Shown in pieces: positions 14,967-61,128 of a stretch of DNA of 64,000 nucleotides. The notes under the pieces are model-generated. The model saw only the letters and a program-made list of their open reading frames with translations. It did no database searches and had not been told where the DNA came from. Source of the stretch: Ephemerocybe angulata. Taxonomy: Eukaryota > Basidiomycota > Agaricomycetes > Agaricales > Psathyrellaceae. The stretch lies in assembly GCA_013368325.1 (NCBI GenBank), contig JAACJK010000231.1, positions 232,743 through 296,742 of the forward strand, given 5' to 3'. The first letter of the stretch is position 1. Every line of letters starts with the position of its first letter. A program made the position numbers and the translations under genes.

Positions 14967-16348
14967 TGATGCGCCTTCAGCGCGTCTACCCACTAAAAAT
15001 CGCGATTTACCTTAATAAATACGCGATTCCCACTGCATATCATCTATCAAAAGACCTGCACCAACGTAAAGGGGAACGAGAGTCAGAGCCGAGCCCAGAG
15101 CTGCTGACTTAGCCTCTCTGACCTACGCGCGGGACTACGAGAAGTGACGAGTAGCCTCAAGCGGGTAAGACCTACCTTCGCGAGACACTTGCTACTTTAA
15201 GGAGACACGCGCGGGACAACTATGGGACCGACTTGGCAAGTAACGGACATAGGCAGAGTAGTGCGTATCAATGGGAAGCCCCCTACCCATCCCTTCGTAT
15301 CTCGCGAGAACACTCTCGCCACACCCAGAGTCGAGAGATCACCGTGACATCAGTAGTCGAGAGGGATTGCACCCGAGCCCCTGATAAGCGCCGGAGTATA
15401 GCTCCCGCGCGACTTGATCTTCACGAGAGGTGGCACGTCGAGAGGTCGATCACACCTCGAGATGTTCGCAATCAAACCACGTCTCGGGAAAGTTCTGGGA
15501 TCGCCATCGGCTGAGGGGAAAACTCAGTACAGGCACCCGCGTGTAACACAGGGGAAGCGGAACCGGCACAACTTAAGCGCCCCATGATTCCCTTGCCCGG
15601 ATATCGGATAGATCGTCCGCGGCTCCACTCTATCAGAGGGGAACCACAATCAGAGATAAGAATAGGTCGTTCCACACGAGACGGGTGGCGCGGCGTGTAC
15701 GAAGAAGTCGGTTGGTGGCAACGGCACAGTCTTGGGTATTTACCCGGGCGCTAATTGGCCTTGAGTTCAACCTCGAGAGGTCTTCCCTCCTATCTCTATG
15801 TTTCACTTGGACTGTTTCGGAATGTATCGCGATCGCATGTGTTTTTCATCTGTTTGTCTTCGAGCTTGTTTGTAAATATTCGGCATGTACTTAAGTCTCG
15901 CGAGTAGTTTAGAGAAAATCAGTTACCCCCCAGTTTTCATCTTTCAAGTCTCTAAGTCAAAGTCCAAGTCTAGCCGTCGCGCTATCTGTCTGTCTGTCTG
16001 TCTGGTCGTCGTGCCAATTGTCTTTAAGTTTTCTGTTCCTTTTGCGAAGCTCTCGAGCCTAGTGAAAGCCCTCTCGTGGTAGCGACCTCGTCCTCCCGAG
16101 ACCCCACCCTCTCATCGAGAACCTATATCACCCCGAAGCGCGGTCGAGTCTAGAACTCCCCTTCAAACTTGCTAGTTGCGAGTACCTTAGAGTCGACCTA
16201 GTCCTCTAGTCCAATACATTACTTTGCCCGCTCTATCTTGAGTGAGTTGCCCCTCAGCTACCTTAGTGTGGTTGTGTGTGTGTTGTGTGTTGTGTTTGTT
16301 GTTTTGGTTAGAGGCGTGTTTGGCTCTTAGCCCCGTAGCCGCACATCA
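14967..16348 (+). repeat. Element B LTR1 (type alpha, 1382 bp)
   Basis: It begins TGATGCGCC and ends GCACATCA, with a 5-bp terminal inversion TGATG/CATCA. It contains a TCTG tetranucleotide run near 15990 and a GT-rich stretch near its 3' end. By eye it matches LTR3 throughout. It differs from LTR2 and LTR4 mainly in a block of about 75 bp near 15548-15625. Confidence 0.95.
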
Positions 16349-17188: not shown

Positions 17189-18571
17189 TGATGCGCCTTC
17201 AGCGCGTCTACCCACTAAAAATCGCGATTTACCTTAATAAATACGCGATTCCCACTGCATATCATCTATCAAAAGACCTGCACCAACGTAAAGGGGAACG
17301 AGAGTCAGAGCCGAGCCCAGAGCTGCTGACTTAGCCTCTCTGACCTACGCGCGGGACTACGAGAAGTGACGAGTAGCCTCAAGCGGGTAAGACCTACCTT
17401 CGCGAGACACTTGCTACTTTAAGGAGACACGCGCGGGACAACTATGGGACCGACTTGGCAAGTAACGGACATAGGCAGAGTAGTGCGTATCAATGGGAAG
17501 CCCCCTACCCATCCCTTCGTATCTCGCGAGAACACTCTCGCCACACCCAGAGTCGAGAGATCACCGTGACATCAGTAGTCGAGAGGGATTGCACCCGAGC
17601 CCCTGATAAGCGCCGGAGTATAGCTCCCGCGCGACTTGATCTTCACGAGAGGTGGCACGTCGAGAGGTCGATCACACCTCGAGATGTTCGCAATCAAACC
17701 ACGTCTCGGGAAAGTTCTGGGATCGCCATCGGCTGAGGGGAGAACTCAGTACAGGCACCCGCGTGTAACACAGGAGAGGCGGAACCGGCACATCTTAGGC
17801 GCCCGCACGGTCTCCCAGCCCGGGTATCGGAATGATCACCCCCGGCTCCACTCTATCAGAGGGGAACCACAATCAGAGATAAGAATAGGTCGTCCCACAC
17901 GAGACGGGTGGCGCGGCGTGTACGAAGAAGTCGGTTGGTGGCAACGGCACAGTCTTGGGTATTTACCCGGGCGCTAATTGGCCTTGAGCTCAACCTCGAG
18001 AGGTCTTCCCTCCTATCTCTATGTTTCATTTGGACCGTTTTGGAATGTATCGCGATCGCATGTGTTTCTCATCTGTTTGTCTTGGAGCTTGTTTGTAAAT
18101 ATTCGGCATGTACTTAAGTCTCGCAAGTAGTTTAGAGAAAATCAGTTACCCCCCAGTTTTCATCTTTCAAGTCTCTAAGTCAAAGTCCAAGTCTAGCCGT
18201 CGCGCTATCTGTCTGTCTGTCTGTCTGGTCGTCGTGCCAATTGTCTTTAAGTTTTCTGTTCCTTTTGCGAAGCTCTCGAGCCTAGTGAAAGCCCTCTCGT
18301 GGTAGCGACCTCGTCCTCCCGAGACCCCACCCTCTCATCGAGAACCTATATCACCCCGAAGCGCGGTCGAGTCTAGAACTCCCCTTCAAACTTGCTAGTT
18401 GCGAGTACCTTAGAGTCGACCTAGTCCTCTAGTCCAATACATTACTTTGCCCGCTCTATCTTGAGTGAGTTGCCCCTCAGCTACCTTAGTGTGGTTGTGT
18501 GTGTGTTGTGTGTTGTGTTTGTTGTTTTGGTTAGAGGCGTGTTTGGCTCTTAGCCCCGTAGCCGCACATCA
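17189..18571 (+). repeat. Element B LTR2 (type beta, 1383 bp)
   Basis: This shared LTR is the 3' LTR of the deleted copy and the 5' LTR of the full copy. Its diagnostic variants (CATTTGGACCGTTTTGG, CTCGCAAGTAG and the diverged 75-bp block) are shared with the LTR at 51129-52511 but not with LTR1 or LTR3. Confidence 0.93.
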
Positions 18572-18573
18572 TC

Positions 18574-18591
18574 TGGAGCCCACCGCGAGGG
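18574..18591 (+). other. Primer binding site of element B
   Basis: Two bases after the LTR end comes TGGAGCCCACCGCGAGGG. It starts with TGG, the complement of a tRNA CCA end, so it is a typical minus-strand primer site. The same sequence follows LTR1 at 16351. I cannot name the primer tRNA by eye. Confidence 0.75.
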
Positions 18592-18699
18592 GGAGTCAGA
18601 ATCGATCAAAGCTTCATTCGTGATCAAGCTCTCGAGCGAGATCCGTTTGTCCGTTTCAGATAGTAAACGAGTTCTATCAACATAGCGTCGAGAAGACCT

Positions 18700-20781
18700 G
18701 TGCTTGATAAAGGAAAAGGAGTAGAGCGACCCAGGAAGAACCCAGTTCTCCCTAGTCAACCCGTTGGAACCCAACCGTCCGTTCGCGCGCGAACGAGAAC
18801 AGCTGTTGCCGAAGCAGGAACAGAACTAGTTGCCTTTGATAACTATCCCAGACCAGGGACAAGTTTCCAAGCACCTACGAACGCGAAAGCGAGAAGCAGC
18901 AGAGTCGTACCACCGGCTGTACCTCCTACCAGAACCCGCCAAGTCGCCCCGTTCACGAGAGGAAAACCTCGAACTACCGCACTCGCGCTAGCCTCGAAAT
19001 CCAATCGCGTAGAACCCGCGCGCAATCCGAGACGAGAAAGTAGAGAAAGTTCGCAATCCACGAACTCCAGTCGCAGACGCCGTAGAAACCGCAGACATTC
19101 GAGTAGCAGTCAATTATCAACGACTCCTATCATGGCTGGCGAACAAGCGCGAATCCGAGCCCTCGATCCTGATGCCACTGGCGAAGGATTCCCTGGGCTC
19201 CCTATGTCGAATAAAAACTTCCCGAATAGTTATTCCGCGAATCGTCCTAAGTACGATTCTACGAAACCAGAGGAGTTCCTAGAGTATGTGAGACAAGTAG
19301 AGGATGTGATCAGCGCATGCGAAATCATCCCGGATCGCTTGAAGAAGAAGGCATTGGTTCACTTCCGAGATGTGTCGGAACAGAGTCTCTGGACAACGCT
19401 ACCTGAATATAAAACGGGTACCTACGCGGAGTTCAAAGAGAAACTGTTCTTGTACCATCCTACAGCAGCACTGCAGAACCGTGGCAGTTTAGCCAGGATC
19501 CAGTTGTTGTGCGCGAGGCACCAAGGGATAGGTCTAGACGCGAGTCATACCTTATTGCAGTTCGCGCTGAAGTTCAGGGCCGAGGCAGCGAAACTCGAGA
19601 AGCATCTCATGAGCAACAATGAATTGGTTAACCTTTTCTTGGGCGCGTTAGATGAGCCTTTCCGTACGAAAGCATGGGAGGTACTCTCGAAGGAAGCCGA
19701 AACGGATGACACCCTGGAAGTCGTTGCAGGAGAGAAGATCATTCCGTTTGACCGATGGATCTCGTGTGCTGAAAAGTTGGCGGTTCAGAGAGAACGCTTT
19801 GGAGAAAGGTTCGGAGGAAAGAAGGGAGGTATCTTGGCTAAACCCTCGGTCGTCTCTGCCACCCCGAGCACTCCAGCAGTGAATCCCGCGGCCCCATCTA
19901 AGTTGTACGAGCCCGGTTGGAACGACGAGCCCACTGTGAAAGTCGAGTACGAGGACCTCGAACACCGAGTTCTGCAGGGAGTGAGTTCTTTGCTAGACCA
20001 GAAATTGAGTGCCATCGATAAAAAGATGATCTCTCGGGATGCCTACATGGAAACTCAACTCGAGGAATTGCGCGCTGGTCAAGGACGCGCTGACAAGTTC
20101 ATGCGCCAGCCCAACAACTTCGCGGTTGCAACTCAGCAGAACAATCCAGGCTCGAGAGGGGGCTTTGGATTCGGAAACAATACGAGAGGACCACCTCCCA
20201 GCGCGGGGTCGATTTGCTACTACTGTAATGGACAGGGTCACTTCGCGAACGACTGTCAAGCCAAGCAGAAACATATCAGCGAAGGCAAGATTGTATCGGG
20301 ACCGGATGGGACCTTCGACAAGCATGGTAATCGCCTGCGCAATATGCCCGGCACCTCCTTGAAAGAGGTAGTAGACAAACTGCCCATGCCCACGGCTAGC
20401 CAGAACGTCCAGCACTACTATGATGACAGTGCGGACTATGTGCGCGATCAGTTCCATCAAGCGCCGTACCAGGAATCAGAAATGATTACTCGGGACGAAA
20501 TGAACATTCTGCGAGACGAGATTTATCATCTGAGTTCCTTAAGGGAACAAGGATCGTCCGCGCGAGCCAAGAACATGCAGCCACAGGCCCAGTTCGTACA
20601 GAAACCAGTGGTCGAGCCTTGGAAGGAGCTCCAGCAGGAGCAGAAGCGGAGCAATCAATTGATGTCCCAATTAGTCGCGGCACTTACCCCGATGGTTGGG
20701 AGGAATCAATTCCCTTTGCAGACGCGGTCTGGAGCGAACCAAGGTGGCGAGGATGATGAGGGTTTTCTCAGCGACCAGTGA
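18700..20781 (+). CDS. gag: Element B Gag
   Basis: The frame is open from 18667. The ORF given starts at a GTG, and the first ATG is at 19132 (MAGEQARIRALDPD), which would give about 550 residues. The segment before that ATG is Arg/Ser-rich and protein-like, so a non-AUG start is possible. The capsid region includes KPEEFLEYVRQVEDVI and KEKLFLYHPTA, and a coiled-coil segment follows. A zinc knuckle, CYYCNGQGHFANDC (CX2CX4HX4C), lies before a Gln-rich tail. It assembles the particle and binds genomic RNA. The ORF ends in TGA overlapping the pro frame and contains the slippery heptamer at 20760. It is intact here and broken by several indels in the copy at 62.5-64 kb. Confidence 0.88.
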   Translation: MLDKGKGVERPRKNPVLPSQPVGTQPSVRARTRTAVAEAGTELVAFDNYPRPGTSFQAPTNAKARSSRVVPPAVPPTRTRQVAPFTRGKPRTTALALASKSNRVEPARNPRRESRESSQSTNSSRRRRRNRRHSSSSQLSTTPIMAGEQARIRALDPDATGEGFPGLPMSNKNFPNSYSANRPKYDSTKPEEFLEYVRQVEDVISACEIIPDRLKKKALVHFRDVSEQSLWTTLPEYKTGTYAEFKEKLFLYHPTAALQNRGSLARIQLLCARHQGIGLDASHTLLQFALKFRAEAAKLEKHLMSNNELVNLFLGALDEPFRTKAWEVLSKEAETDDTLEVVAGEKIIPFDRWISCAEKLAVQRERFGERFGGKKGGILAKPSVVSATPSTPAVNPAAPSKLYEPGWNDEPTVKVEYEDLEHRVLQGVSSLLDQKLSAIDKKMISRDAYMETQLEELRAGQGRADKFMRQPNNFAVATQQNNPGSRGGFGFGNNTRGPPPSAGSICYYCNGQGHFANDCQAKQKHISEGKIVSGPDGTFDKHGNRLRNMPGTSLKEVVDKLPMPTASQNVQHYYDDSADYVRDQFHQAPYQESEMITRDEMNILRDEIYHLSSLREQGSSARAKNMQPQAQFVQKPVVEPWKELQQEQKRSNQLMSQLVAALTPMVGRNQFPLQTRSGANQGGEDDEGFLSDQ

Positions 20782-20816
20782 AGGACACTGCCGTCGCGAA
20801 AAGAACCGTTGGTCGC
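20760..20816 (+). other. gag-pro -1 frameshift signal, element B
   Basis: The slippery heptamer G_GGT_TTT (20760-20766) is in gag phase. After a 4-nt spacer, GCGACCA (20771-20777) pairs perfectly with TGGTCGC (20810-20816). An alternative pairing GTCGCG (20793-20798) with CGCGAC (20814-20819) could form a competing or pseudoknotted structure. The -1 frame is open from the heptamer into the pro ORF. The site is conserved in the 51-64 kb copy. Confidence 0.75.
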
Positions 20817-22145
20817 GACAAGGCAAGCCCGGAGGTGCGTAACAACAAACCCAGCAGAAAAGCCACGGTAGAGGATGAGGAAGACGATGAGGATGAGGAG
20901 CCAATAAAGAGAGGGCCGCCGTCAGGAGTAAAGAAGGTCTTTAATCCGCGAGCACCTCGAGGAGTGCGGTTCGAAACGGTAGAAGTTGGGGGGACGAGTC
21001 AAGCGGCGCCTAAGTTGAAAGACCGGCCCTTTGTACTAGTACCACCACTCAAAACGACTCCGTTGAAAACACCAACCCGCGAGGATGTACAGCAAGGGAG
21101 AGAAGGTCGTTCCGATCCCAAAACAGCGTTGCCTCGCTTAGAGAAGAAGGGACCCGCGTATCAGCACAAGGCGCCTATTGAGGAAGCCGAGTCGCTGAGC
21201 CGCATTATGGAGGAGTTACTGAGTACGAGGTTCACTACGAGTCTTAAGGACTTGGCAAGCATTTCGGCACCTGCCCGCGAGTACTTGAAAAAGATGATAA
21301 CCAAGAAGAAGATTGCGATTGATAATAAGGAAAAAGCCTCGGATCTCGAGTACCAAATCATCGCTCTCATCGACTTGATGTCTACCGAGTACAAAGCTCG
21401 CGCGGTACAAATGTGCAACATCTTAGAGGCAGAAGAGGAGTTGGGCGGAATGGAGATCCCCGATCCTGAGAGAGAAGAAGAGGAAGAACCAGGGACTGTA
21501 AGAGTTGAACAAGTCTTCGTGCAGTTGGAAGAGCTGCCTCCCGCGCAAGTCTTTCTGGCACAAGGAATTCCATCGGTACCCGACGGAGCCTTCGTAGTTA
21601 GTGACCCCGTGGAGCAGTATCTAAATTCATTGGAAGATGGGGAAGAGCCGCGGCCAATTCTGGTAGCGCGCGAATCCGTGTCTCTGAGAACTGTCTACCC
21701 GAGTATCAATAAATCGGGTAAGGTAGAAGTCCTCTTGGATACGGGCTCCCAGATCTGTTCCATGGATGCAGATGTGGCGAGACGTCTGGGAATCTCATTC
21801 GATCCAGATATCGTCATTCACCTCCAGTCCGCAAACCGAACGACAGAAAAGACTCTAGGTCTAGCTAGAAACATCGAGTTCGACTTCGATGGAGTAACGG
21901 CATATATCCAGCTTCACATCATTCGCCGTCCAGCGTATGATGTTCTTCTCGGGAGACCTTTCGACGTCGCTATGTCAAGCGAGGTCAAGAACAACACCCG
22001 CGGCGAGCAGCAGATCACACTCTGCGATCCCAACACGGGCAAGAGGATTACCATTGCCACCAGCCCTCGAGGCAAACCACCCCCGCACGTTAGAAAAGAG
22101 ATGCTTGACGCTCAAGAAGTAAATTTTCGAGCCTCGAGGATCTGA
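20778..22145 (+). CDS. pro: Element B protease ORF (pro)
   Basis: The ORF has 455 residues, lies in the -1 frame relative to gag and has no ATG of its own at the start, as expected for a frameshift product. The first third is acidic and linker-like. A helical segment (IEEAESLSRIMEELLSTRF, then APAREYLKKM) resembles regions preceding the protease in other basidiomycete retroelements. The retropepsin motif is VEVLLDTGSQICSMD near residue 318, and the flap-side partner is DVLLGRPF near residue 395. It cleaves the polyprotein in the particle. The ORF is intact, as is the second copy at 61129-62496. Confidence 0.85.
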   Translation: MKDTAVAKRTVGRDKASPEVRNNKPSRKATVEDEEDDEDEEPIKRGPPSGVKKVFNPRAPRGVRFETVEVGGTSQAAPKLKDRPFVLVPPLKTTPLKTPTREDVQQGREGRSDPKTALPRLEKKGPAYQHKAPIEEAESLSRIMEELLSTRFTTSLKDLASISAPAREYLKKMITKKKIAIDNKEKASDLEYQIIALIDLMSTEYKARAVQMCNILEAEEELGGMEIPDPEREEEEEPGTVRVEQVFVQLEELPPAQVFLAQGIPSVPDGAFVVSDPVEQYLNSLEDGEEPRPILVARESVSLRTVYPSINKSGKVEVLLDTGSQICSMDADVARRLGISFDPDIVIHLQSANRTTEKTLGLARNIEFDFDGVTAYIQLHIIRRPAYDVLLGRPFDVAMSSEVKNNTRGEQQITLCDPNTGKRITIATSPRGKPPPHVRKEMLDAQEVNFRASRI

Positions 22146-22183
22146 TCAACGGTGATCAGGAGGAAGTGGGTCTAATCCTCGAG
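22121..22183 (+). other. pro-pol -1 frameshift signal, element B
   Basis: The slippery heptamer A_AAT_TTT (22121-22127) is in the pro phase. After a 5-nt spacer, CTCGAGGAT (22133-22141) pairs with ATCCTCGAG (22175-22183). Inside it sits a perfect hairpin, CTGATCA-ACGG-TGATCAG (22142-22159). The pro stop (22143-22145) falls within this structure, and the -1 frame is open through to pol. The heptamer and stems are also present at 61.1 kb in the second copy. Confidence 0.8.
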
Positions 22184-25100
22184 AGAGATGACAGGACTGG
22201 CGAGATTAGCCTAACCCAAGTCGTGAGACCCACAGAGAGCGTATTCAGCCAAGAAGAGTTACAGAGAGCATATCTACAGTCGTACTTCGAGGGAACTCCA
22301 GAAGGCGACGAAGATGACAGAAAAGGACGAGAGGTATTTCAAAACTACCTCTCGACTATAGAAAACCCAGATAGTGAAAAGAGAGTACAGTTAGTCGTGG
22401 AGACGCAACCAGCGATGACCTCCCAAGATCAGAAAGCGAAAGCCAAGGTCAAGGGAGTCTCGAAGGGCACGAAATACAAGAAGGTGGCTGATAAAGTCAA
22501 ACCGGTTATGGGGCACTTAGACGAGAGGTTTCGCATCATTAGGGACATTAAAGGTGACCCGCTCGCGAACCTCCCTGAGCTGCCAACTAGGCCTTCGGAG
22601 TTCAAACCCACTGGGCGCTACACACAAGAAAGGAAGGAGGACATGGACAAGCTGCATAAAGGGGACTTCTTGTGGGACGAAGAAAGGAAACTACTACATA
22701 ACTTCGTCTCGATACATGAAGAAGGCTTCGCTTGGGACGATTCAGAAAGGGGGAGCTTTAAACCAGAGTTCTTCCCGCCAGTCGAGATACCCACGACCCC
22801 TCACACCCCTTGGGCGCTTAGAAACATTCCTATTCCCCCAGGCTTGTATGATCGCGTGTGTGCCATGATCAAGAGCAAAATAGATGCCGGCGTGTACGAG
22901 CCTTCGAACTCATCGTACAGGTCGAGGTGGTTTTGCGTGTTGAAGAAAGATGGGGAGAGTCTGAGGATTGTACACAGCTTAGAACCGCTGAACGCAGTTA
23001 CAATCGCTCACTCGGGAGTGCCCCCAGCAACGGAAGAGTTAGCGAGTAAGTTCGCAGGAAGGTCGTGTGGAGGCTGTCTGGATTTATATGTGGGATACGA
23101 CGAGAGGTTATTATCACCCTCCTCGCGAGATCTCACCACATTCCAAACACCCTTCGGCGCGATGAGACTGGTAACCCTACCCATGGGATGGACCAATTCC
23201 GTGCCCATCTTCCACGACGATGTCACCCATATCTTACAAGAAGAAATACCAGAAGTCACTTGGCCGTTTTTGGATGATGTGCCCGTAGGCGGACCTCGTA
23301 CTAGATACGAGAAAGCCGACGGTACGTACGAGACTATACCCGAGAACCCTGGTATCCGAAGATTTGTATGGGAACATTTCCAGAATCTCAACCGCGTAGT
23401 GGAGAGAATGAAGTACAGTGGCGGCACATTCTCAGGAAAGAAGTCCGTACTGTGCGCAGACGAGTTTGTGGTGGTTGGCCATTTATGTACCTATGAAGGT
23501 CGAAAACCACTGCCAGAGAGAGTAGGTGTCATCGAGAGGTGGGGACCTTGTCAGTCTGTCAGCGATGTCCGCGCCTTCCTAGGAACAGTGGGGACGATGA
23601 GAATATTTATCCGTGACTATGCTAAACGCGCAGACGCGATCCAGAAGCTGACAAGGATTGACCAACCGTTCGAGTGGGGAGAAGCTCAGGACGCCGCGAT
23701 GCGAGACTTAAAGGATGCAGTCCGAGACGCACCATGCCTAAGATCCCTGGACTATGATGTTAACACCGAGATCAAGCTCTCAGTCGACACGTCCTACAAA
23801 GCGATCGGCTGGTACATAAGTCAACAAGACATTGCAGACCTTAAGAAGTGGTGGTACGCGCGGTTCGGCTCGACTACCATGACTCCGCGCGAGGCTCGCT
23901 ACTCCCAACCAAAACGAGAGTTATTCGGATTGATGAGAGCATTGCAGGAGAACAAATACTGGCTCATTGGCTGCAGACGTCTAGTGGTAGAAACCGATGC
24001 TCAATACATTAAAGGAATGCTCAACAATCCGGAAATGGGTCCTAACGCTACCATTAACCGATGGATTGAGAACATTCTGATGTATCACTTCGAGCTACGG
24101 CACGTAGCAGGCAAGACCTTTGCCGCGGATGGACTTTCCAGGCGTGATCGCATGCCCGAGGATCCGCCGCACCAGCCCTACGACCACCAAGGAGAATCGG
24201 GCGACGGACTGAGAGGATACTCGAAACCTAACCCAGAGGATCCGGACCCGCTCGACTTCGAGGACTTCAAACATGAGATTGACACGCGAGGAGGATATCT
24301 CCTCAATGTCACGATCCCTGAAGCCGATTTCGAGGATGACAGAGTTCTGACTGGTGTCTCGCGACATGTCCGAACGGCGACGCGAGCACAGTTGGTCAAC
24401 GTCGAGATGTTGCCAGATGCAGAGTTGAAAATGGATGAAGAAGAGATAGAGGCGTACGATGACGCGAGACGATCCCAACAAGCGCGGGACACAGACGAGC
24501 GCCTACCCAAAATAGCTAAGTGGCTAAAGGGGCCGCTACAAGCGCCCGAGGGATTGAAGCTGGCAGATGTGGGCAAGTGGGTCCGAGAGTGCAGCCATTA
24601 CTTCGAAAAAGAAGGAAAGCTGTATCGAAGACAAACTGGTCACCCACAGCTAGTTGTGCCTAAGGAGAACCGTATGTACATGATGAGGGCCGCACACGAC
24701 GCACTTGGACACCGAGGCGCGTGGGCCACCACTCAGGTTCTACTGAAGCGCTTCTGGTGGCCTGAACTCGAAGGAGATGTGAACTGGTATGTAAAGACCT
24801 GTCACGTTTGCCAGCTGAGGACAAAGCTACTGTTGAAGATCCCACCACAAGTCACGGATACTCCGTCGATTTTCCAAGTGTTGCACGCGGATGTGTTGCA
24901 GATGACTCCCGCGAGCAACGGCTGCAAGTACATTGTGCATGGTCGGTGTGCGCTGTCTTCTTGGATGGAGGGCAAGCCCTTGAAAGAAGAAACAGGCGCA
25001 CAGATCGGCGCGTGGTTATTGGAGATCATCACGAGATGGGGATGCATGAGGGAGATTGTTACGGACAATGGAGGCGCGTTCGTGAAGGCTACAAAATGGC

Positions 25101-25891
25101 TTGAGGACAAGTATGGCATTAAGGGAATTAAGATCTCGCCGTACAACTCCAAAGCCAATGGTCGGATCGAGCGTCCCCACTACGACGTCCGCGACATGCT
25201 GTTCAAGGCAACCAATGGTGTCGCGAAGCAATGGTACTGGTACTTCCAACACATTATGTGGGCGGACCGCGTCACGGTACGACGTCGATTCGGAGTCTCT
25301 CCGTTCTTCATGGTCACCGGCGCGGAACCAGTTCTGCCATTAGACATCCAGGAAGCAACTTGGCTAGTCGAGCCTCCAAGCGGTCCTATGACCACAGAGG
25401 AGCTTCTGGCGCAGCGCGCGAAGGGCTTAGCTAAGCATAGGGACTTAGTCGAGAATATGAGGAGTCGAGTTGATAAGGAGAAGAGAGAACGCGTCGTGAA
25501 ATACGAAAAGGAGTATGCACGGACAATCCGAGACTTAAAATTCAAACGCGGAGACTTAGTATTAATGCGCAATACGAGTATTGAGAAAAGTCTCGACAAG
25601 AAAATGAAGCCGAGGTATTTGGGCCCTTTGGTGGTGATTGCACGTAATAAGGGAGGAGCGTACATTCTCGCAGAAATGGATGGTGCCGTCCTACAGAGCG
25701 CCGTTGGTGCCTTCAGAGTCATCCCATATCACGCGAGGAAACGCATTCCTCTCCCTGCGTCAATTCATGACTTCATCGACATAGAGCCGTCCACGCTGGA
25801 AGAGATGGAAGAAGAGTCGGAAACAGGGTACATTGAGGACTTAGCATTTAAAGGAATGCCGAGAGGTGACCCTGAGGAAGACGACGATTAG
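22166..25891 (+). CDS. pol: Element B Pol: reverse transcriptase, RNase H, integrase
   Basis: The ORF has 1241 residues, starts at a GTG and is reached by a -1 frameshift from pro. The RT region (about residues 190-420) has the catalytic FLDDV near 367 and FQTPFGAMRLVTLPMGW upstream. RNase H (about 530-660) shows SVDTSY, KRELF, ETDAQYI and AADGLSRRD. The integrase has an HHCC zinc finger (HDALGHRGAW ... CHVCQ, about 843-880). Its DDE core residues are in HADVLQ (near 907), VTDNGGAF (near 967) and GRIERPHYD (near 1000). A basic Gypsy integrase C-terminal segment and an acidic tail end the protein; no chromodomain is visible. The ORF is intact, while the copy at 57.4-61.1 kb is frameshifted. 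Confidence 0.93.
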   Translation: MGLILERDDRTGEISLTQVVRPTESVFSQEELQRAYLQSYFEGTPEGDEDDRKGREVFQNYLSTIENPDSEKRVQLVVETQPAMTSQDQKAKAKVKGVSKGTKYKKVADKVKPVMGHLDERFRIIRDIKGDPLANLPELPTRPSEFKPTGRYTQERKEDMDKLHKGDFLWDEERKLLHNFVSIHEEGFAWDDSERGSFKPEFFPPVEIPTTPHTPWALRNIPIPPGLYDRVCAMIKSKIDAGVYEPSNSSYRSRWFCVLKKDGESLRIVHSLEPLNAVTIAHSGVPPATEELASKFAGRSCGGCLDLYVGYDERLLSPSSRDLTTFQTPFGAMRLVTLPMGWTNSVPIFHDDVTHILQEEIPEVTWPFLDDVPVGGPRTRYEKADGTYETIPENPGIRRFVWEHFQNLNRVVERMKYSGGTFSGKKSVLCADEFVVVGHLCTYEGRKPLPERVGVIERWGPCQSVSDVRAFLGTVGTMRIFIRDYAKRADAIQKLTRIDQPFEWGEAQDAAMRDLKDAVRDAPCLRSLDYDVNTEIKLSVDTSYKAIGWYISQQDIADLKKWWYARFGSTTMTPREARYSQPKRELFGLMRALQENKYWLIGCRRLVVETDAQYIKGMLNNPEMGPNATINRWIENILMYHFELRHVAGKTFAADGLSRRDRMPEDPPHQPYDHQGESGDGLRGYSKPNPEDPDPLDFEDFKHEIDTRGGYLLNVTIPEADFEDDRVLTGVSRHVRTATRAQLVNVEMLPDAELKMDEEEIEAYDDARRSQQARDTDERLPKIAKWLKGPLQAPEGLKLADVGKWVRECSHYFEKEGKLYRRQTGHPQLVVPKENRMYMMRAAHDALGHRGAWATTQVLLKRFWWPELEGDVNWYVKTCHVCQLRTKLLLKIPPQVTDTPSIFQVLHADVLQMTPASNGCKYIVHGRCALSSWMEGKPLKEETGAQIGAWLLEIITRWGCMREIVTDNGGAFVKATKWLEDKYGIKGIKISPYNSKANGRIERPHYDVRDMLFKATNGVAKQWYWYFQHIMWADRVTVRRRFGVSPFFMVTGAEPVLPLDIQEATWLVEPPSGPMTTEELLAQRAKGLAKHRDLVENMRSRVDKEKRERVVKYEKEYARTIRDLKFKRGDLVLMRNTSIEKSLDKKMKPRYLGPLVVIARNKGGAYILAEMDGAVLQSAVGAFRVIPYHARKRIPLPASIHDFIDIEPSTLEEMEEESETGYIEDLAFKGMPRGDPEEDDD

Positions 25892-26136: not shown

Positions 26137-27647
26137 CTAAGTAGAGGTAGAAGGAGCAGAAGAAGAAGCAGCAGAGTTGTCGTTGAGAGAAAGAAGAGAA
26201 GCCTTCAAAGTGGTGTACTCCTCGTTGAGGATCTGCCAGAAACCAGTGTAGATCTGAAGCTTGTGAATAACCTGCAACATGACGCCGCGGGTCTCGCCAA
26301 TAATAACACGGAGGTTCTCCTCGTTCTGAGTCTGGTTGGCGAAGTCGCGAACCAACTTGAGCGAGTTGGAGACCACTCCCTGAACGTACTGGTTAGAGAT
26401 CGCGCGATCATCGACTACAAGAGAGAGTAAGCCCGAGGACATAAGGAAATCGAAGGGAGAAGGCGCACTGTACTCGACGAGGTTACCGTCAGGGAAAAGA
26501 CGGTTCCCAGAGCCTCGAGAACCAGAAGCCTGAGCCTCGCGATGAACCTCTCCCTGGCGAGACCTCTTGTTGTTAACTTGCGGGGCCTTCATAAACATAG
26601 GAGAACCGGTGTCCATGTTAGGAACCTGAGAGTGGTCCAACATGCGGACTCCGCCGGACGAGTTGGTGCTACCACCACGAGTGGGACGAGTACGAGAGCC
26701 CTAGGAACGAAGTCAGAAGGAGAAAGTGGGAAGAAAGAAAGATGCATACCCCAGCAGCACCGCCGCGAGCAGAACGGCCGCGACGAGCATTGTTGGCAGA
26801 GGCATCGGCCATGACCACATCCTGAGGTTCCAAGAAGGTGATCTCCTAGAGAACGCGAGAGTAAGCAACGGGCTACAGGAGAGAAACATAGGATACGAAC
26901 CTCAATGTCCTCAGGGGCAGGAGCACTAGCCTTAGCTTTACCCTTAGAGGGAGCACTCTCCTCAGCCGGAGTAACAGACTCAGCGACAGGGAACAAGACG
27001 CCTAGGGAGAGGATGAATCAGAGAAGAGAAGATAAGACGATGAAGGAGAGTACGCACGAGCCAAGGAAGACGCGGTAGACTTCGCGGCACGAACAGTGGC
27101 ATCGCCATCGGCCGCGGTAGCCGCAGAAGCAGCGGTAGGCATCGGGGTATCCTGACGCGGACCGTAACTTTCGCGGCACTCGCCCAGGTACTTGAGAACC
27201 AGCTCGAGCTTCTCGTTATCCGGAGGCGTGACCTCGCGAGAGGAGAACGCGGCCTGGTGAGCAGTCAACGCGGCATGGAGTTTCCCAACGATGCGACGGT
27301 GACGAGAGTTGTGCTTAAGAACGGCTTCGACCGCAGGTGGCTCCTATGAGAAGGGTCAGTCGCGGGGTAAGGAGATCTGTAAGAACCGAACGTACAACGA
27401 GGTCAAACAAGCCCTCTTGGGCGCGACTAACCGCGTTGGCGGCACGAGGGTTCAAGGTCTTGGAACCAGGAAGGATGTGCTTGAGGCAATCGTTGCGAAC
27501 TTGGGTGAGGGACGTAATGCTGGTCCCTAAGAGGTGGTCTTCAAGGTCATTCGCACCTTCATTGAAAGTGCGAAGGATAGACCGGGGAGACGCCGGAGCA
27601 GCAGCCTCAGGAGGAGGAGAAGGAGAAGGGGAAGGAACGACAGGCAT
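26137..27647 (-). CDS. Antisense gene Y of element B (432 aa, 4 introns)
   Basis: It is encoded against the direction of gag-pol and ends 245 bp from the pol stop, tail to tail. Five exons join in phase with GT-AG introns of about 50-57 nt (positions worked out on the twin copy at 55628-57138). The predicted 432-residue protein has a Pro/Ser-rich start (MPVVPSPSPSPPPEA) and a helical region around SILRTFNEGANDLEDHLLG. An Ala/Thr-rich linker and an Arg/Gly-rich segment (NNARRGRSARGG) follow. A long helical C-terminal domain includes DFLMSSGLLSLVVDD and GVMLQVIHKLQIYTGFWQIL, and the protein ends in a Ser-rich tail. I recognise no family. It has a TATA box 55 nt upstream of the ATG. Both copies are intact and almost identical, which argues for a working gene. 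Confidence 0.75.
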
Positions 27648-27701
27648 TGAGAGAGAGAAGGTCGAGTAAATCGATGCTGAAAAGGAGAGAAAACTCCCCA
27701 G

Positions 27702-27709
27702 TATTTATA
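27702..27709 (-). promoter_or_regulatory. TATA box of antisense gene Y
   Basis: The minus strand reads TATAAATA 55 nt upstream of the Y start codon, inside the element body. It indicates that Y has its own Pol II promoter independent of the LTR. Confidence 0.6.
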
Positions 27710-28290
27710 CTCGAGAAAGAACTGGAGCGGGAACAGGGGTCTAAGTCATAATCTAGCATTGGGTCTCGGAGTCCGGCACCCAGAGATGGCGACATGTGAG
27801 GTAGCGCGTGGAATAGGATGCCAGAATAGCTCGGCGCGAGGAATATCGCGCGGCAGCGAAGCTGAGAGGAATTGCACGCGTGAAACGCTATGGAAGGGGA
27901 GCGTAATTGCACCCGCGCGCCATCAAACAGGGGGGCGCTTAACGGCTAAACCGAGATCTCGAGGACCGTGACTACGACGAAGGTTCCAGGCGAGAGGTGC
28001 GATCGACAAGGTCGAGCCCCTGTCGATCCTCCGCCATGATACCAAGAAGTGAAGCCGAGAGATAGAGAAATCTTACCTCGAGAGGTGGAACTGCACACCT
28101 TCACACGGGCGCTTAAAATGCGCGAAACCAATCAAAGAGCTATGAGACGTCAAAATACGAGCGCAATACATTTGAGACGTGAATGGGAAGGTACATGGAA
28201 GCCATAGTAGTGGTGTAGAAGTATAGGTGATACGTAAGAGTCAGTGTCTGTTTGAGAGAGAAGAGTCCAAGAAAAGGGGAAGCCGAGCGC

Positions 28291-30339
28291 CTAAGCAACG
28301 GGAGGAGCGTCCTGCGCATCCAACGCCGCTTCGCCTTCTTCCTCCTCGTCGATGGGAACACCCCCGTCACGAACTTCGCCTCCCAGCTCCTGTTCGACCG
28401 AGTGGTCGTCCTCGACCTGCGAAGACGAACCTGACGAAGGGAGGACCGCGATTTGAGGAGCGGCAGGCGACGACGACGAAGGAAGTGGATTGGAGGCCGG
28501 AGTAATGAAGTTGGCAGGGTTGACGACGGGGAACGCGACGGTGCCTTGACTGGTTCCTCGGTTCTCGGCGGCGGCGTACCAAGAGGAGGAAGCGATGCTC
28601 TTGATGAGCTCGTCGGAGCCACAGTCGCGAGTGCTGTTTAGGATGTTCGCGAGGAACGATTGAGCGGCGTCGACCTTGAGGGCCTGGAACTCGCAAAGCT
28701 TGCGCATCTCGTCGTACATGGCGTGCTCGACGACGAGCGTTTGGAAAGCGCGATTAGCATCTAGAGAATGGGGGAGGTGAGTAAAACGGAACCAGGATGG
28801 CGCGAAGGGTAGAACGTACTGTTGACGCTCGGCGCCTGACTCGTGAGGAACTCCATCTCCCGGACTTGAGGTAAGGTGACGCGAGGAGGGCGTATCGAAG
28901 GAGCCCACGAGCACGACTGGCTCGAGGTCTTACAGGCCAAGCACTTCCCGTGGGGGTCTTTAGGGTCCTCGACGCACTCCGGAAGTGCACCTCGAGCGAT
29001 GCATCGACCGCAAGGAGGAGGCGGCTGGGATCGAGAGGTGAGTAACGAAGTGGTAATGGAGAAAGAGGGACCAACCCTAGGAGGAGGAGTGGTGACGCGC
29101 TTGAGGAGCTTGACGTCGGAACGAGACGAGAGGAGCTGGGAGGGCGGCACTAAGTGCTGAAGGACCTCGGCCATGGCGAGCTGATGAGCTTGAAAGGCGG
29201 CGGCCTGCTTCGCAGCCATAAGTTGCCTGCGGCTTTGCGCCTCGTCGACCTCACCCTCGCCGTCGTCTCCAGCATCCTCAGCGTCGCCCCCAGCGTCTCC
29301 AACGAAGTCTCCGGTAATGCTAGAAGAGTCGCTAGACGAATCGGAATCGTCGGACTGTTCAGGATCGTAGGTCTCGACATCGATCGTAGTCCTAACGGTC
29401 TTGGGAACGGGAGGGCGAAGTTGATGGGCAGCGTACAGAGAGGGTGGAGGCTGCGCGGCACGGCCCTTGCCTTTCGAAGACGAAGTTCTGGTAGACGAGG
29501 AGGGACCAGCACCGCGGGATGACGAAGTCGGCTCGACTTTGATCTTCTTGAGGGGAGGCGGCTGCACGCCCAAGAACTGTTCAGATAAGTCGACCGAGAG
29601 GAACGGAGAGAACGCGACGTACCCCAGTGTCACCAGAGGACTTGCGCTTGGATGGAACCTCGGCGGGACGAGCAGAACTAAGGCCAGCCACTTGATGGCG
29701 CCGACCGACGTCCTTGACCTCACCGAGCGAGATAGGCGCCGGTTGCGTCGCAATCCGCTCTCGGGTGTCTGAAGCTTTCGGACGCGAAGTTGAGGGTTTG
29801 GAACTGGAGATGTGCGCGTTGACGCTGGAGAAGAATGTGAGTACACCGCCAAAATGAGCATCGAGGCTACGCACCGGGCAAGGGGCGCGGACACCGTGCC
29901 TTGAGCTTTCCGAGAGGAACCCGAGGAAGGGGCCTTGGACGAAGGGGGTGTAGCTGGAGTAGGCCAGTCGGAGGGCGGAGGATTAGGTGGAAAGAGGGGC
30001 GCGGACCACTGAGCTTTAGGATTGAGCGCCGACGAAAGGGAGCGTTTGATTTTCTTGTCAGAAGTGGCCTGGCCGAGGTAGTACGCCATGTAGTTGCGAA
30101 AAGCGGGGAAGTTGGGATGCTGAGTTAGCAGAGGGTTGGTATGGATGAGTTGCTGTGGATCGAGAAAAGAAAGAACTCTTAGCGTCCGATCGTAGAGCAG
30201 ACGAGAGGCAGCTTACCACTACGCGGATCCACTCATCGTAGAAGGCGTTTAGCTTTTGAGGACTCCAGTCCGGGGACGCCGTCGCCGCCTGAAGCGCAGC
30301 TACCATATCGGCGGCCATACCGAGAGAGGGATCAGCCAT
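28291..30339 (-). CDS. Antisense gene X of element B (592 aa, 5 introns), cysteine-cluster protein
   Basis: The start is 412 bp inside the PPT, and transcription runs toward pol, against gag-pol. Six exons join in phase (positions worked out on the twin copy at 52936-54984). The protein begins MADPSLGMAADMVAALQ. It has a Pro/Ser-rich stretch, a basic patch (LKKIKVEP) and an acidic Asp/Ser run. It then carries a cysteine cluster, CGRCIARGALPEC ... CLACKTSSQSC (CX2CX8C, spacer, CX2CX6C). A helical segment and a Glu-rich C-terminus follow. The cluster resembles fungal Zn2Cys6-like domains that bind DNA, so a nuclear DNA-binding role is possible but inferred. Near the start codon the two copies differ only at silent third positions. 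Confidence 0.75.
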
Positions 30340-30750
30340 CTGTATAGAGAGAGACGAGAGACGAAAGTACGAAGAGAGGCGGAGCGCGAGTTAGAAAGTC
30401 CCCAAGAAGACCGGGCTATATGTGAAGACAAATGTGACATTTGTGACATGGGCCCGGGAATGGATAACGCAGAAAAATCCTGGGAGAACATTCAGAGCGC
30501 GCTTCGAATGACATGACATGTCGAGAACTACGCGAGAAGGATGTGACGCGGGCTAAACCTGCAAGCACCGGGAAAAACTTAGAATCAATAGAGTCGAGGG
30601 TATAGGGTTGTTAGGACGTCTCGGGATCAGAATGAACCGGGGACCTCGCGGCAAAGGACTGAGGCGAGGCAGACAGGTCGGTGAACTCGCGAGAGGACAA
30701 GAACGAAGTTGGGTAGCGGTATCAAAAGGACTGAGGACAGTCTAGATTTC

Positions 30751-30763
30751 AGTTGGGGGGAGA
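30751..30763 (+). other. 3' polypurine tract, element B
   Basis: AGTTGGGGGGAGA directly abuts LTR3 (TGATGCG at 30764). The same tract abuts LTR2 at 17176-17188 and LTR4 at 52512-52524. It primes plus-strand synthesis. Confidence 0.9.
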
Positions 30764-32145
30764 TGATGCGCCTTCAGCGCGTCTACCCACTAAAAATCGC
30801 GATTTACCTTAATAAATACGCGATTCCCACTGCATATCATCTATCAAAAGACCTGCACCAACGTAAAGGGGAACGAGAGTCAGAGCCGAGCCCAGAGCTG
30901 CTGACTTAGCCTCTCTGACCTACGCGCGGGACTACGAGAAGTGACGAGTAGCCTCAAGCGGGTAAGACCTACCTTCGCGAGACACTTGCTACTTTAAGGA
31001 GACACGCGCGGGACAACTATGGGACCGACTTGGCAAGTAACGGACATAGGCAGAGTAGTGCGTATCAATGGGAAGCCCCCTACCCATCCCTTCGTATCTC
31101 GCGAGAACACTCTCGCCACACCCAGAGTCGAGAGATCACCGTGACATCAGTAGTCGAGAGGGATTGCACCCGAGCCCCTGATAAGCGCCGGAGTATAGCT
31201 CCCGCGCGACTTGATCTTCACGAGAGGTGGCACGTCGAGAGGTCGATCACACCTCGAGATGTTCGCAATCAAACCACGTCTCGGGAAAGTTCTGGGATCG
31301 CCATCGGCTGAGGGGAAAACTCAGTACAGGCACCCGCGTGTAACACAGGGGAAGCGGAACCGGCACAACTTAAGCGCCCCATGATTCCCTTGCCCGGATA
31401 TCGGATAGATCGTCCGCGGCTCCACTCTATCAGAGGGGAACCACAATCAGAGATAAGAATAGGTCGTTCCACACGAGACGGGTGGCGCGGCGTGTACGAA
31501 GAAGTCGGTTGGTGGCAACGGCACAGTCTTGGGTATTTACCCGGGCGCTAATTGGCCTTGAGTTCAACCTCGAGAGGTCTTCCCTCCTATCTCTATGTTT
31601 CACTTGGACTGTTTCGGAATGTATCGCGATCGCATGTGTTTTTCATCTGTTTGTCTTCGAGCTTGTTTGTAAATATTCGGCATGTACTTAAGTCTCGCGA
31701 GTAGTTTAGAGAAAATCAGTTACCCCCCAGTTTTCATCTTTCAAGTCTCTAAGTCAAAGTCCAAGTCTAGCCGTCGCGCTATCTGTCTGTCTGTCTGTCT
31801 GGTCGTCGTGCCAATTGTCTTTAAGTTTTCTGTTCCTTTTGCGAAGCTCTCGAGCCTAGTGAAAGCCCTCTCGTGGTAGCGACCTCGTCCTCCCGAGACC
31901 CCACCCTCTCATCGAGAACCTATATCACCCCGAAGCGCGGTCGAGTCTAGAACTCCCCTTCAAACTTGCTAGTTGCGAGTACCTTAGAGTCGACCTAGTC
32001 CTCTAGTCCAATACATTACTTTGCCCGCTCTATCTTGAGTGAGTTGCCCCTCAGCTACCTTAGTGTGGTTGTGTGTGTGTTGTGTGTTGTGTTTGTTGTT
32101 TTGGTTAGAGGCGTGTTTGGCTCTTAGCCCCGTAGCCGCACATCA
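30764..32145 (+). repeat. Element B LTR3 (type alpha, 1382 bp)
   Basis: It has the same ends and length as LTR1 and appears identical to it by eye, including the diverged 75-bp block. It is followed by the CCGT duplication at 32146-32149. Confidence 0.95.
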
Positions 32146-52935: not shown

Positions 52936-54984
52936 ATGGCCGATCCCTCCCTTGGTATGGCAGCCGACATGGTAGCTGCGCTTCAGGCGGCGACGGCGTC
53001 CCCGGACTGGAGTCCTCAAAAGCTAAACGCCTTCTACGATGAGTGGATCCGCGTAGTGGTAAGCTGCCTCTCGTCTGCTCTACGATCGGACGCTAAGAGT
53101 TCTTTCTTTTCTCGATCCACAGCAACTCATCCATACCAACCCTCTGCTAACTCAGCATCCCAACTTCCCCGCTTTTCGCAACTACATGGCGTACTACCTC
53201 GGCCAGGCCACTTCTGACAAGAAAATCAAACGCTCCCTTTCGTCGGCGCTCAATCCTAAAGCTCAGTGGTCCGCGCCCCTCTTTCCACCTAATCCTCCGC
53301 CCTCCGACTGGCCTACTCCAGCTACACCCCCTTCGTCCAAGGCCCCTTCCTCGGGTTCCTCTCGGAAAGCTCAAGGCACGGTGTCCGCGCCCCTTGCCCG
53401 GTGCGTAGCCTCGATGCTCATTTTGGCGGTGTACTCACATTCTTCTCCAGCGTCAACGCGCACATCTCCAGTTCCAAACCCTCAACTTCGCGTCCGAAAG
53501 CTTCAGACACCCGAGAGCGGATTGCGACGCAACCGGCGCCTATCTCGCTCGGTGAGGTCAAGGACGTCGGTCGGCGCCATCAAGTGGCTGGCCTTAGTTC
53601 TGCTCGTCCCGCCGAGGTTCCATCCAAGCGCAAGTCCTCTGGTGACACTGGGGTACGTCGCGTTCTCTCCGTTCCTCTCGGTCGACTTATCTGAACAGTT
53701 CTTGGGCGTGCAGCCGCCTCCCCTCAAGAAGATCAAAGTCGAGCCGACTTCGTCATCCCGCGGTGCTGGTCCCTCCTCGTCTACCAGAACTTCGTCTTCG
53801 AAAGGCAAGGGCCGTGCCGCGCAGCCTCCACCCTCTCTGTACGCTGCCCATCAACTTCGCCCTCCCGTTCCCAAGACCGTTAGGACTACGATCGATGTCG
53901 AGACCTACGATCCTGAACCGTCCGACGATTCCGATTCGTCTAGCGACTCTTCTAGCATTACCGGAGACTTCGTTGGAGACGCTGGGGGCGACGCTGAGGA
54001 TGCTGGAGACGACGGCGAGGGCGAGGTCGACGAGGCGCAAAGCCGCAGGCAACTTATGGCTGCGAAGCAGGCCGCCGCCTTTCAAGCTCATCAGCTCGCC
54101 ATGGCCGAGGTCCTTCAGCACTTAGTGCCGCCCTCCCAGCTCCTCTCGTCTCGTTCCGACGTCAAGCTCCTCAAGCGCGTCACCACTCCTCCTCCTAGGG
54201 TTGGTCCCTCTTTCTCCATTACCACTTCGTTACTCACCTCTCGATCCCAGCCGCCTCCTCCTTGCGGTCGATGCATCGCTCGAGGTGCACTTCCGGAGTG
54301 CGTCGAGGACCCTAAAGACCCCCACGGGAAGTGCTTGGCCTGTAAGACCTCGAGCCAGTCGTGCTCGTGGGCTCCTTCGATACGCCCTCCTCGCGTCACC
54401 TTACCTCAAGTCCGGGAGATGGAGTTCCTCACGAGTCAGGCGCCGAGCGTCAACAGTACGTTCTACCCTTCGCGCCATCCTGGTTCCGTTTTACTCACCT
54501 CCCCCATTCTCTAGATGCTAATCGCGCTTTCCAAACGCTCGTCGTCGAGCACGCCATGTACGACGAGATGCGCAAGCTTTGCGAGTTCCAGGCCCTCAAG
54601 GTCGACGCCGCTCAATCGTTCCTCGCGAACATCCTAAACAGCACTCGCGACTGTGGCTCCGACGAGCTCATCAAGAGCATCGCTTCCTCCTCTTGGTACG
54701 CCGCCGCCGAGAACCGAGGAACCAGTCAAGGCACCGTCGCGTTCCCCGTCGTCAACCCTGCCAACTTCATTACTCCGGCCTCCAATCCACTTCCTTCGTC
54801 GTCGTCGCCTGCCGCTCCTCAAATCGCGGTCCTCCCTTCGTCAGGTTCATCTTCGCAGGTCGAGGACGACCACTCGGTCGAACAGGAGCTGGGAGGCGAA
54901 GTTCGTGACGGGGGTGTTCCCATCGACGAGGAGGAAGAAGGCGAAGCGGCGTTGGATGCGCAGGACGCTCCTCCCGTTGCTTAG
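52936..54984 (+). CDS. Antisense gene X, second copy (592 aa, 5 introns)
   Basis: Exons 52936-53058, 53123-53400, 53451-53652, 53699-54199, 54251-54455 and 54515-54984 total 1779 nt and join without a stop. Introns have GTAAGC, GTGCGT, GTACGT, GTTGGT and GTACGT donors and AG acceptors. The protein matches the copy at 28291-30339, with one visible substitution (Gln to Pro in the acidic segment YDPEPSDD) in the middle exon. In the first 15 codons there are five differences, all silent. The cysteine cluster (CGRC ... CLACKTSSQSC) is kept. A CTATATAG sequence directly precedes the ATG. The gene remains open although gag and pol of this copy are broken. Confidence 0.78.
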
Positions 54985-55565: not shown

Positions 55566-55573
55566 TATAAATA
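55566..55573 (+). promoter_or_regulatory. TATA box of antisense gene Y, second copy
   Basis: TATAAATA lies 55 nt before the Y ATG, the same place as in the first copy. Confidence 0.6.
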
Positions 55574-55627: not shown

Positions 55628-57138
55628 ATGCCTGTCGTTCCTTCCCCTTCTCCTTCTCCTCCTCCTGAGGCTGCTGCTCCGGCGTCTCCCAGGTCTATCC
55701 TTCGCACTTTCAATGAAGGTGCGAATGACCTTGAAGACCACCTCTTAGGGACCAGCATTACGTCCCTCACCCAAGTTCGCAACGATTGCCTCAAGCACAT
55801 CCTTCCCGGTTCCAAGACCTTGAACCCTCGTGCCGCCAACGCGGTTAGTCGCGCCCAAGAGGGCTTGTTTGACCTCGTTGTACGTTCGGTTCTTACAGAT
55901 CTCCTTACCCCGCGACTGACCCTTCTCATAGGAGCCACCTGCGGTCGAAGCCGTTCTTAAGCACAACTCTCGTCACCGTCGCATCGTTGGGAAACTCCAT
56001 GCCGCGTTGACTGCTCACCAGGCCGCGTTCTCCTCTCGCGAGGTCACGCCTCCGGATAACGAGAAGCTCGAGCTGGTTCTCAAGTACCTGGGCGAGTGCC
56101 GCGAAAGTTACGGTCCGCGTCAGGATACCCCGATGCCTACCGCTGCTTCTGCGGCTACCGCGGCCGATGGCGATGCCACTGTTCGTGCCGCGAAGTCTAC
56201 CGCGTCTTCCTTGGCTCGTGCGTACTCTCCTTCATCGTCTTATCTTCTCTTCTCTGATTCATCCTCTCCCTAGGCGTCTTGTTCCCTGTCGCTGAGTCTG
56301 TTACTCCGGCTGAGGAGAGTGCTCCCTCTAAGGGTAAAGCTAAGGCTAGTGCTCCTGCCCCTGAGGACATTGAGGTTCGTATCCTATGTTTCTCTCCTGT
56401 AGCCCGTTGCTTACTCTCGCGTTCTCTAGGAGATCACCTTCTTGGAACCTCAGGATGTGGTCATGGCCGATGCCTCTGCCAACAATGCTCGTCGCGGCCG
56501 TTCTGCTCGCGGCGGTGCTGCTGGGGTATGCATCTTTCTTTCTTCCCACTTTCTCCTTCTGACTTCGTTCCTAGGGCTCTCGTACTCGTCCCACTCGTGG
56601 TGGTAGCACCAACTCGTCCGGCGGAGTCCGCATGTTGGACCACTCTCAGGTTCCTAACATGGACACCGGTTCTCCTATGTTTATGAAGGCCCAGCAAGTT
56701 AACAACAAGAGGTCTCGCCAGGGAGAGGTTCATCGCGAGGCTCAGGCTTCTGGTTCTCGAGGCTCTGGGAACCGTCTTTTCCCTGACAGTAACCTCGTCG
56801 AGTACAGTGCGCCTTCTCCCTTCGATTTCCTTATGTCCTCGGGCTTACTCTCTCTTGTAGTCGATGATCGCGCGATCTCTAACCAGTACGTTCAGGGAGT
56901 GGTCTCCAACTCGCTCAAGTTGGTTCGCGACTTCGCCAACCAGACTCAGAACGAGGAGAACCTCCGTGTTATTATTGGCGAGACCCGCGGCGTCATGTTG
57001 CAGGTTATTCACAAGCTTCAGATCTACACTGGTTTCTGGCAGATCCTCAACGAGGAGTACACCACTTTGAAGGCTTCTCTTCTTTCTCTCAACGACAACT
57101 CTGCTGCTTCTTCTTCTGCTCCTTCTACCTCTACTTAG
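55628..57138 (+). CDS. Antisense gene Y, second copy (432 aa, 4 introns)
   Basis: Exons 55628-55879, 55932-56217, 56274-56374, 56430-56525 and 56575-57138 total 1299 nt, in phase throughout. The protein matches the copy at 26137-27647 apart from a few substitutions (for example KAQQV for KAPQV and PDSNL for PDGNL). The Arg/Gly-rich segment and helical C-terminal domain are preserved. The stop lies about 245 bp from the end of the opposing pol gene. The 640-bp gap after gene X holds the X 3' end and the Y promoter; no further gene is seen there. Confidence 0.78.
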
Positions 57139-61108: not shown

Positions 61109-61128
61109 TTCCCCCTGATCACCGTTGA

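Follow-up and report, generated by a model that had tools for sequence, protein, structure and literature searches.

How can a retrotransposon keep genes that are interrupted by introns, and what would such genes do for it? The question is raised by element B, a long terminal repeat (LTR) retrotransposon of the Ty3/Gypsy type in a 64,000-nucleotide stretch of the small mushroom Ephemerocybe angulata, an agaric of the Psathyrellaceae (contig JAACJK010000231.1, positions 232,743 to 296,742; the whole stretch is called the window below). Two multi-intron genes, X and Y, lie downstream of its pol and ahead of its 3' LTR, and run antisense to gag-pol. The DNA sequence places these genes within the element, gives their intron structure and the marks of purifying selection, and contains a TATA box before Y and similar genes in relatives of the element. 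An LTR retrotransposon, in other words, can carry full multi-intron genes by antisense placement and under purifying selection. We consider it probable, with clear reserve, that X and Y are spliced antisense accessory genes, and not passengers, that regulate their Ty3/Gypsy-type element.

The spliceosome acts on introns in the sense orientation only, so antisense introns persist. The introns of X and Y would escape loss in retrotransposition in this way, as the genomic RNA would hold their complement alone, and this is no substrate for the spliceosome.

Two intron-containing genes lie antisense to gag-pol in element B

The main features of element B are as follows.

14967..16348, plus strand: 5' LTR, identical to the 3' LTR; the flank ends in CCGTT
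18667..20781, plus strand: gag-like open reading frame (ORF) with a CCHC knuckle (Pfam zf-CCHC, E 2.5e-4, the sole match)
20760..22145, plus strand: aspartyl protease ORF (Pfam gag-asp_proteas, E 5.5e-7)
22109..25891, plus strand: pol ORF with reverse transcriptase (RT), RNase H and integrase (Pfam Integrase_H2C2, E 4.9e-17; RT_RNaseH_2, E 8e-14)
26137..27647, minus strand: gene Y, 432 amino acids, four introns; ATG at 27647, stop codon ends at 26137
27395-27344, 27057-27002, 26900-26846 and 26749-26701, minus strand: introns of Y (52, 56, 55 and 49 nt)
28291..30339, minus strand: gene X, 587 or 592 amino acids, five introns; ATG at 30339, stop codon ends at 28291
30216-30153, 29874-29825, 29622-29562 (or 29622-29577), 29075-29025 and 28819-28761, minus strand: introns of X (64, 50, 61 (or 46), 51 and 59 nt)
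30764..32145, plus strand: 3' LTR, with the purine tract GTTGGGGGGAGA before it and CCGTT after it

The two LTRs (14967-16348 and 30764-32145) are identical at 1382 of 1382 positions, and CCGTT on both flanks represents a 5-bp target duplication. The X-Y module sits inside these boundaries, between pol and the 3' LTR, as an initial annotation of this DNA had proposed. Two LTRs, a target duplication and a polypurine tract mark B as an LTR retrotransposon, and its domain order (CCHC, protease, RT/RNase H, Integrase_H2C2) is that of Ty3/Gypsy, an assignment made from Pfam domains and not from an RT tree. Within pol, RT gave a weak RVT_1 match (E 0.048); the Pfam search returned no rve and no Chromo match, and B is not classed as a chromovirus.

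Intron 3 of X has alternative acceptors 15 nt apart. The upstream one yields the 592 amino acids originally given for X, and the additional residues are present in five of six listed database X-type proteins; the downstream one yields 587. A fifth, in-frame intron of 54 nt may be present in Y at 26468-26415, and no aligned copy varies within it.

Copies of the module show purifying selection on X and Y

Element C, a near-identical inverted copy of element B, extends to the end of the window. As had been noted initially, its module (52936-57138; locus L002) is open in both genes, with coordinates mapped from B through the inverted repeat:

52936..54984, plus strand: gene X of inverted element C
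55628..57138, plus strand: gene Y of inverted element C

Many more copies were found elsewhere in the genome, where the module, used as a DNA query, gave at least 35 matches. In a search with pol, the best 42 of 435 candidates were scored, and the pol of element C is not among the matches listed. Of the 26 B-family pols among these matches, 25 are followed by the module, or at least by its pol-side start; the exception (C87:780-3113) is truncated by the end of its contig. At two of the 25 (C120 and C152:825789) the adjoining match is just 66 and 114 bp long, the remainder being displaced by other DNA. Some B-family modules (loci L017, L029, L031, L022 and L038) are split, by about 7 kb at C120:1035666-1046749 and about 19 kb at C121:212315-235692; the gap in the latter contains a sister-family pol (225236-228619), whose element seems to be nested in the B module.

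We aligned 25 copies or part copies, of which 18 span the whole module. The part copies L010, L021, L022, L023, L026, L027 and L029 stand outside the selection counts, and L017, L024, L025, L028 and L030-L032 are not in the alignment. Past the module, each of the 18 full copies continues with 500 bp that are 98-100% identical to the LTR. The frame of Y is open in 18 of the 18 and that of X in 15. Among the part copies, L010 has early stops in both genes and L023 a stop in X under the exon model of B.

The five introns of X and four of Y that had been read from element B have GT-AG borders at 161 of 162 positions (nine introns in 18 copies), the remaining one being GC-AG (Y intron 1 of L016). 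Exons of X in the 15 open copies differ in length from those of B by 0, +3 or -9 nt only. Introns 1, 2 and 4 of X change by -1, +1, +2 or +3 nt in open copies, and six of these (L011, L013, L015, L018-L020) carry an out-of-frame change of -1, +1 or +2; neither exons nor introns of Y change in length among copies. Variation falls mainly at third codon positions, with 155 of 588 in X, versus 57 and 64 at the other positions, and 40 of 433 in Y, versus 9 and 9. When all pairs of the 18 copies are pooled (pairs that are not independent, owing to shared ancestry and recombination), synonymous (pS) and nonsynonymous (pN) differences per site were 0.107 and 0.033 for X (ratio 0.31) and 0.021 and 0.0032 for Y (ratio 0.15), while the introns, with a diversity of 0.089 in X and 0.019 in Y, are close to pS and thus near-neutral. 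For X, the single pair L001/L018 gave a ratio of nonsynonymous to synonymous substitution rates (dN/dS) of 0.29.

X and Y are under purifying selection, and neutral decay in most copies, an outcome that the initial annotation had considered, is not what the copies display. On the splice-site, frame-keeping and pN/pS data we reject a chance origin of the GT-AG pairs, and X and Y are almost certainly real protein genes. Constraint on codons, a frame kept from exon to exon and introns that are near-neutral call for a protein function, and because selection kept the genes working while the element copied itself, the element would seem to need their products.

Related families carry antisense genes after pol

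Neither the genes described in this section nor the mosaic structure described further below had been part of the initial annotation. Sixteen further pols, at 61-64% identity, are among the matches listed, and antisense genes follow all 16: X' at ten of them, and a Y-type gene with no X found at six. X' lies 2.3-3.2 kb after pol and is antisense at all ten, and at the two of these that were read further Y' is present as well. Eight sister loci were read past pol, and in each of the eight an antisense Y-type gene with introns ends 33-128 bp downstream of the pol match. An eleventh X' (contig C47) and a few fragments come without a listed pol. Neither an X' search, an X-type search nor gene finding detected X at C87, C64, C134, C215, C115 or C121:225236, where a very divergent X could escape; at C121:225236 the search covered just 3 kb. 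In the pair L035/L040, sequence similarity stops about 3.7 kb into the stretch, leaving little space for X before the element ends.

In the eight Y proteins from outside element B the first intron falls at the same alignment column, in phase 0. That of Y in B is in phase 0 too, but the protein has no sensible alignment to the others. Direct tblastn of X and Y against six sister loci gave weak matches that we judged to be low-complexity. The Y-type genes are themselves constrained, with pN/pS of 0.04 for Y' in L033/L034 (354 codons) and 0.13 for Y'' in L035/L040 (407 codons). By position the sister genes are counterparts of X and Y, and they are probable homologues.

A custom splice-aware gene finder scored the minus strand of the module at 108, in a model that joins X and Y, and the plus strand at -0.6, with 20 dinucleotide shuffles at or below 2.5; X and Y were among its training genes, which makes this contrast somewhat circular. 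At seven related loci that had no part in its training, antisense models scored 57-125 and plus strands at most 6.3, in two runs with different penalties and with X' and Y' joined in L033 and L034. An eighth, L036, was excluded from the comparison, its model extending into another element. We discounted as artefacts the models that fuse X and Y, as well as an upstream start predicted in both L034 and L036 and an additional intron in the former.

Motifs and relatives of the predicted proteins

X contains a cysteine motif that resembles a zinc cluster:

28911..29012, minus strand: Cys6 zinc-cluster-like motif of X, CX2CX8CX10CX2CX6C, with all six cysteines invariant in 7 aligned sequences

Gal4-type Zn2Cys6 clusters have the spacing CX2CX6CX5-12CX2CX6-8C. 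The motif of X' (x6, x10, x6) agrees with this consensus, and that of X deviates by x8 in the first loop; the Gal4-type Pfam profile matched neither X (E up to 1) nor X' (E up to 5). Basic clusters were recognised by eye as PPPLKKIK in X, PPPPKKRK in X' and RGTKR...KGRV in Y''. A hit of X to Ran-binding protein 9 (E 0.025) falls in the acidic, low-complexity middle of X and was set aside, as was a match of Y'' to PMF1 at E 0.045.

Among the roughly 8000 best word-sharing candidates of a protein database, X had six matches and Y'' ten, all named E. angulata, and Y had none. At least 16 'hypothetical proteins' in fungal databases thus very probably belong to mobile elements. That X/Y-type proteins are absent from other species is weakly indicated, given the limit of about 8000 scored candidates and the abundance of low-complexity words in X/Y-type proteins.

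Promoter candidates and a mosaic of X and spacer haplotypes

Two intergenic regions may hold promoters for the antisense genes:

27648..28290, minus strand: X-Y spacer with the putative Y promoter inside; three haplotypes, about 71-89% mutually identical
27704..27709, minus strand: TATAAA box, 62 bp upstream of the start codon of Y
30340..30763, minus strand: stretch from X to the 3' LTR, a putative promoter of X; 17-bp palindrome at 30428-30444

The TATAAA box of Y and the sequence following it are retained in ten copies compared, which span three spacer haplotypes differing by up to 29%. Of nine Y-type genes, a count that includes the close pairs L033/L034 and L035/L040, eight have TATAAA 51-86 bp before the start codon and the ninth has TATAAG; from base composition, 0.002-0.008 TATAAA are expected per gene in the stretch from -90 to -50. 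Upstream of X, nucleotide diversity over 424 bp is 0.022, versus a pS of 0.084 in X codons 1-80, a reduction that recombination could also have caused.

Y and the pol-side stretch are 95-100% identical among the copies compared (11 in the block tables), where the 3' half of X occurs as two haplotypes of about 85% identity. Combinations of X 3'-half and spacer haplotypes fit no single tree, and recombination between element lineages is a simple explanation of this mosaic. A B element at L023 (C13:157271-162562) has a last Y exon 98% identical to that of B together with X DNA that, for most of its length, is only 55-75% identical to that of B and nearer to the database protein P0006, a swap of X between lineages.

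The 3' half of X and the spacer might form an exchangeable specificity cassette, X being a DNA-binding regulator that targets the element's own promoters, with regulator and operator haplotypes that reassort between elements almost identical in other respects. We regard this as improbable, and it is weakened by the finding that the two haplotypes sometimes separate. If true, cassette haplotypes would define immunity-like groups of elements that repress kin and spare non-kin. Whether exchangeable X/spacer haplotypes define regulatory specificities is, to us, the main question of interest.

A tentative regulatory role for X and Y

According to the explanation that we favour, RNA polymerase II would transcribe X and Y off the integrated DNA, antisense to gag-pol and each from its own internal promoter, and the host would splice the transcripts, which would then be translated. 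Both proteins may be nuclear, as the basic clusters suggest; X may bind DNA through its Cys6 motif, with Y as a predicted helical partner, and together they might control transcription or chromatin of the element in proportion to the number of integrated copies. The analogy with HBZ of human T-cell leukemia virus type 1 (HTLV-1) and GENE23 of Grande makes a regulator of transcription of the element itself our best guess, and this regulatory role we put forward tentatively. Effects on copy number or chromatin, which the initial annotation had named as possible roles, are plausible.

Several observations weigh against this explanation. Neither Pfam (no match) nor the Protein Data Bank (no convincing match) recognised X, Y or their relatives, so that the evidence for DNA binding and a nuclear location consists of motifs judged by eye. 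The initial proposal of own promoters is upheld for Y-type genes by a TATA box at a plausible distance; upstream of X, TATAAA is missing. X is frameshifted from the first exon on in three of the 18 full copies (L006, L009 and L012), Y codons 241-320 have a ratio of 0.85, and the 3' end of pol in the same copies (251 codons) is under stronger constraint than X or Y, at 0.04. Common descent of the B and sister genes is unproved because profile comparison by hhalign was weak for X and X' (E 0.01, probability 4%, with the Cys6 motif only in common) and for Y'' and Y' (E 0.00067, probability 27%), and gave nothing beyond an 18-column low-complexity match for Y of B and Y''.

The rival that survives best is that X and Y are real accessory proteins serving the copying cycle (nuclear import of the preintegration complex, choice of integration site or particle structure) and not transcription or copy number. 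Element-level selection is compatible with any function, the basic clusters would suit nuclear import, and a review of plant elements raises this alternative as well (PMC7264820). We nevertheless think it rather unlikely, on the indirect ground that separate antisense promoters and splicing, as predicted from sequence, would uncouple X and Y from gag-pol output, which is better for a regulator than for a structural part. A poor candidate is the antisense RNA itself as the useful product, with convergent transcription giving double-stranded RNA that silences or dampens the element and ORFs of little weight; the layout does imply convergent promoters, and RNA roles are discussed for plant elements in that review (PMC7264820), but codon-level constraint, frame-keeping and near-neutral introns demand a protein function, to which an RNA role may be added. 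Least probable of all is that X and Y are passengers, either captured host genes (their multi-exon structure is host-like, and a source gene was not found) or a nested DNA transposon, given that the module start follows 25 of 26 listed B-family pols, that related families hold similar genes, that Pfam and PDB recognised no transposase or host domain (no search was aimed at terminal inverted repeats) and that constraint on X, Y and the Y-type genes persists.

Other features of the window

Element B has split a chromovirus, element A (gag 11088-12800; pol 12725-15112 and 32128-33903), with a Pfam Chromo match in ORF 32128-33903 (E 2.7e-13). At the 5' end of B (16349-18956) we observed an extra 455 bp of the X start and promoter and a second LTR (16734-18571, 99.9% identical to the LTR of element C), after which the 385-bp leader is repeated; this piece probably arose by aberrant reverse transcription or by recombination. 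In element C, pol (57384-61165) is in two overlapping frames, versus a single ORF in B. Elsewhere, 35917-36475 is a three-copy direct repeat (152-bp spacing, 89-91% to the first copy), and 46341-46717 holds an irregular 119-bp repeat family of five overlapping copies (63-88% to the reference) within long ORFs that overlap on both strands. Three long plus-strand ORFs (453, 286 and 379 amino acids) occupy 40682-44254, and a Pfam search gave no significant match for the 453- and 379-residue ones.

Comparison with known systems

Antisense ORFs are described for the plant elements Grande (GENE23), RIRE2 and Retand (PMC7264820; PMC11963269), in agreement with the initial annotation. Set against the aORF-3R type, our case has the start of the module behind 25 of the 26 listed pols, 18 full copies and, as evidence for an own promoter, the TATA box of Y only. 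GENE23 of maize Grande, with its own promoter and a nuclear protein (PMC7264820), resembles what we propose for X and Y, and TRP28 of Retand, with predicted DNA binding (PMC11963269), what we propose for X. By the names given, the antisense proteins of Grande, RIRE2 and Retand differ from X and Y. The word 'intron' is absent from the main text of the Retand paper (PMC11963269), in contrast to the multi-intron X and Y, and the accessible parts of both sources describe no two-gene, multi-intron module for plant elements (PMC7264820; PMC11963269).

HBZ of HTLV-1 is, as described in PMC10186651, an antisense, spliced nuclear factor controlling sense transcription, much like the role proposed for X and Y; it differs in belonging to a retrovirus, in its expression from the 3' LTR, in being a basic leucine zipper factor and in being a single gene. 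For Penelope-like elements with intron-containing genes, PMC3846280 describes introns copied by a retroelement and names an antisense template as compatible with intron retention. Those elements are non-LTR, however, and the genes are host genes mobilised in trans (PMC3846280).

Closest among fungi are the Boty-like elements of Botrytis cinerea (Zhao et al., 2011, as cited), Ty3/Gypsy elements in which the gene brtn is, as in B, antisense to gag-pol. The citing text names one antisense gene, versus two in B, and gives the Boty-like gag-pol a chromodomain, whereas the pol of B has no Pfam chromodomain match. In the open-access literature searched, no fungal two-gene, intron-bearing antisense module is described, in keeping with what the initial annotation had stated. 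A mushroom with many near-identical natural copies makes the role of antisense accessory genes in retrotransposons testable. Antisense accessory ORFs as such were already known, from plants and from Boty of Botrytis; the E. angulata elements add two genes with nine introns, a putative separate promoter for at least Y, several related families in one mushroom and measured purifying selection.

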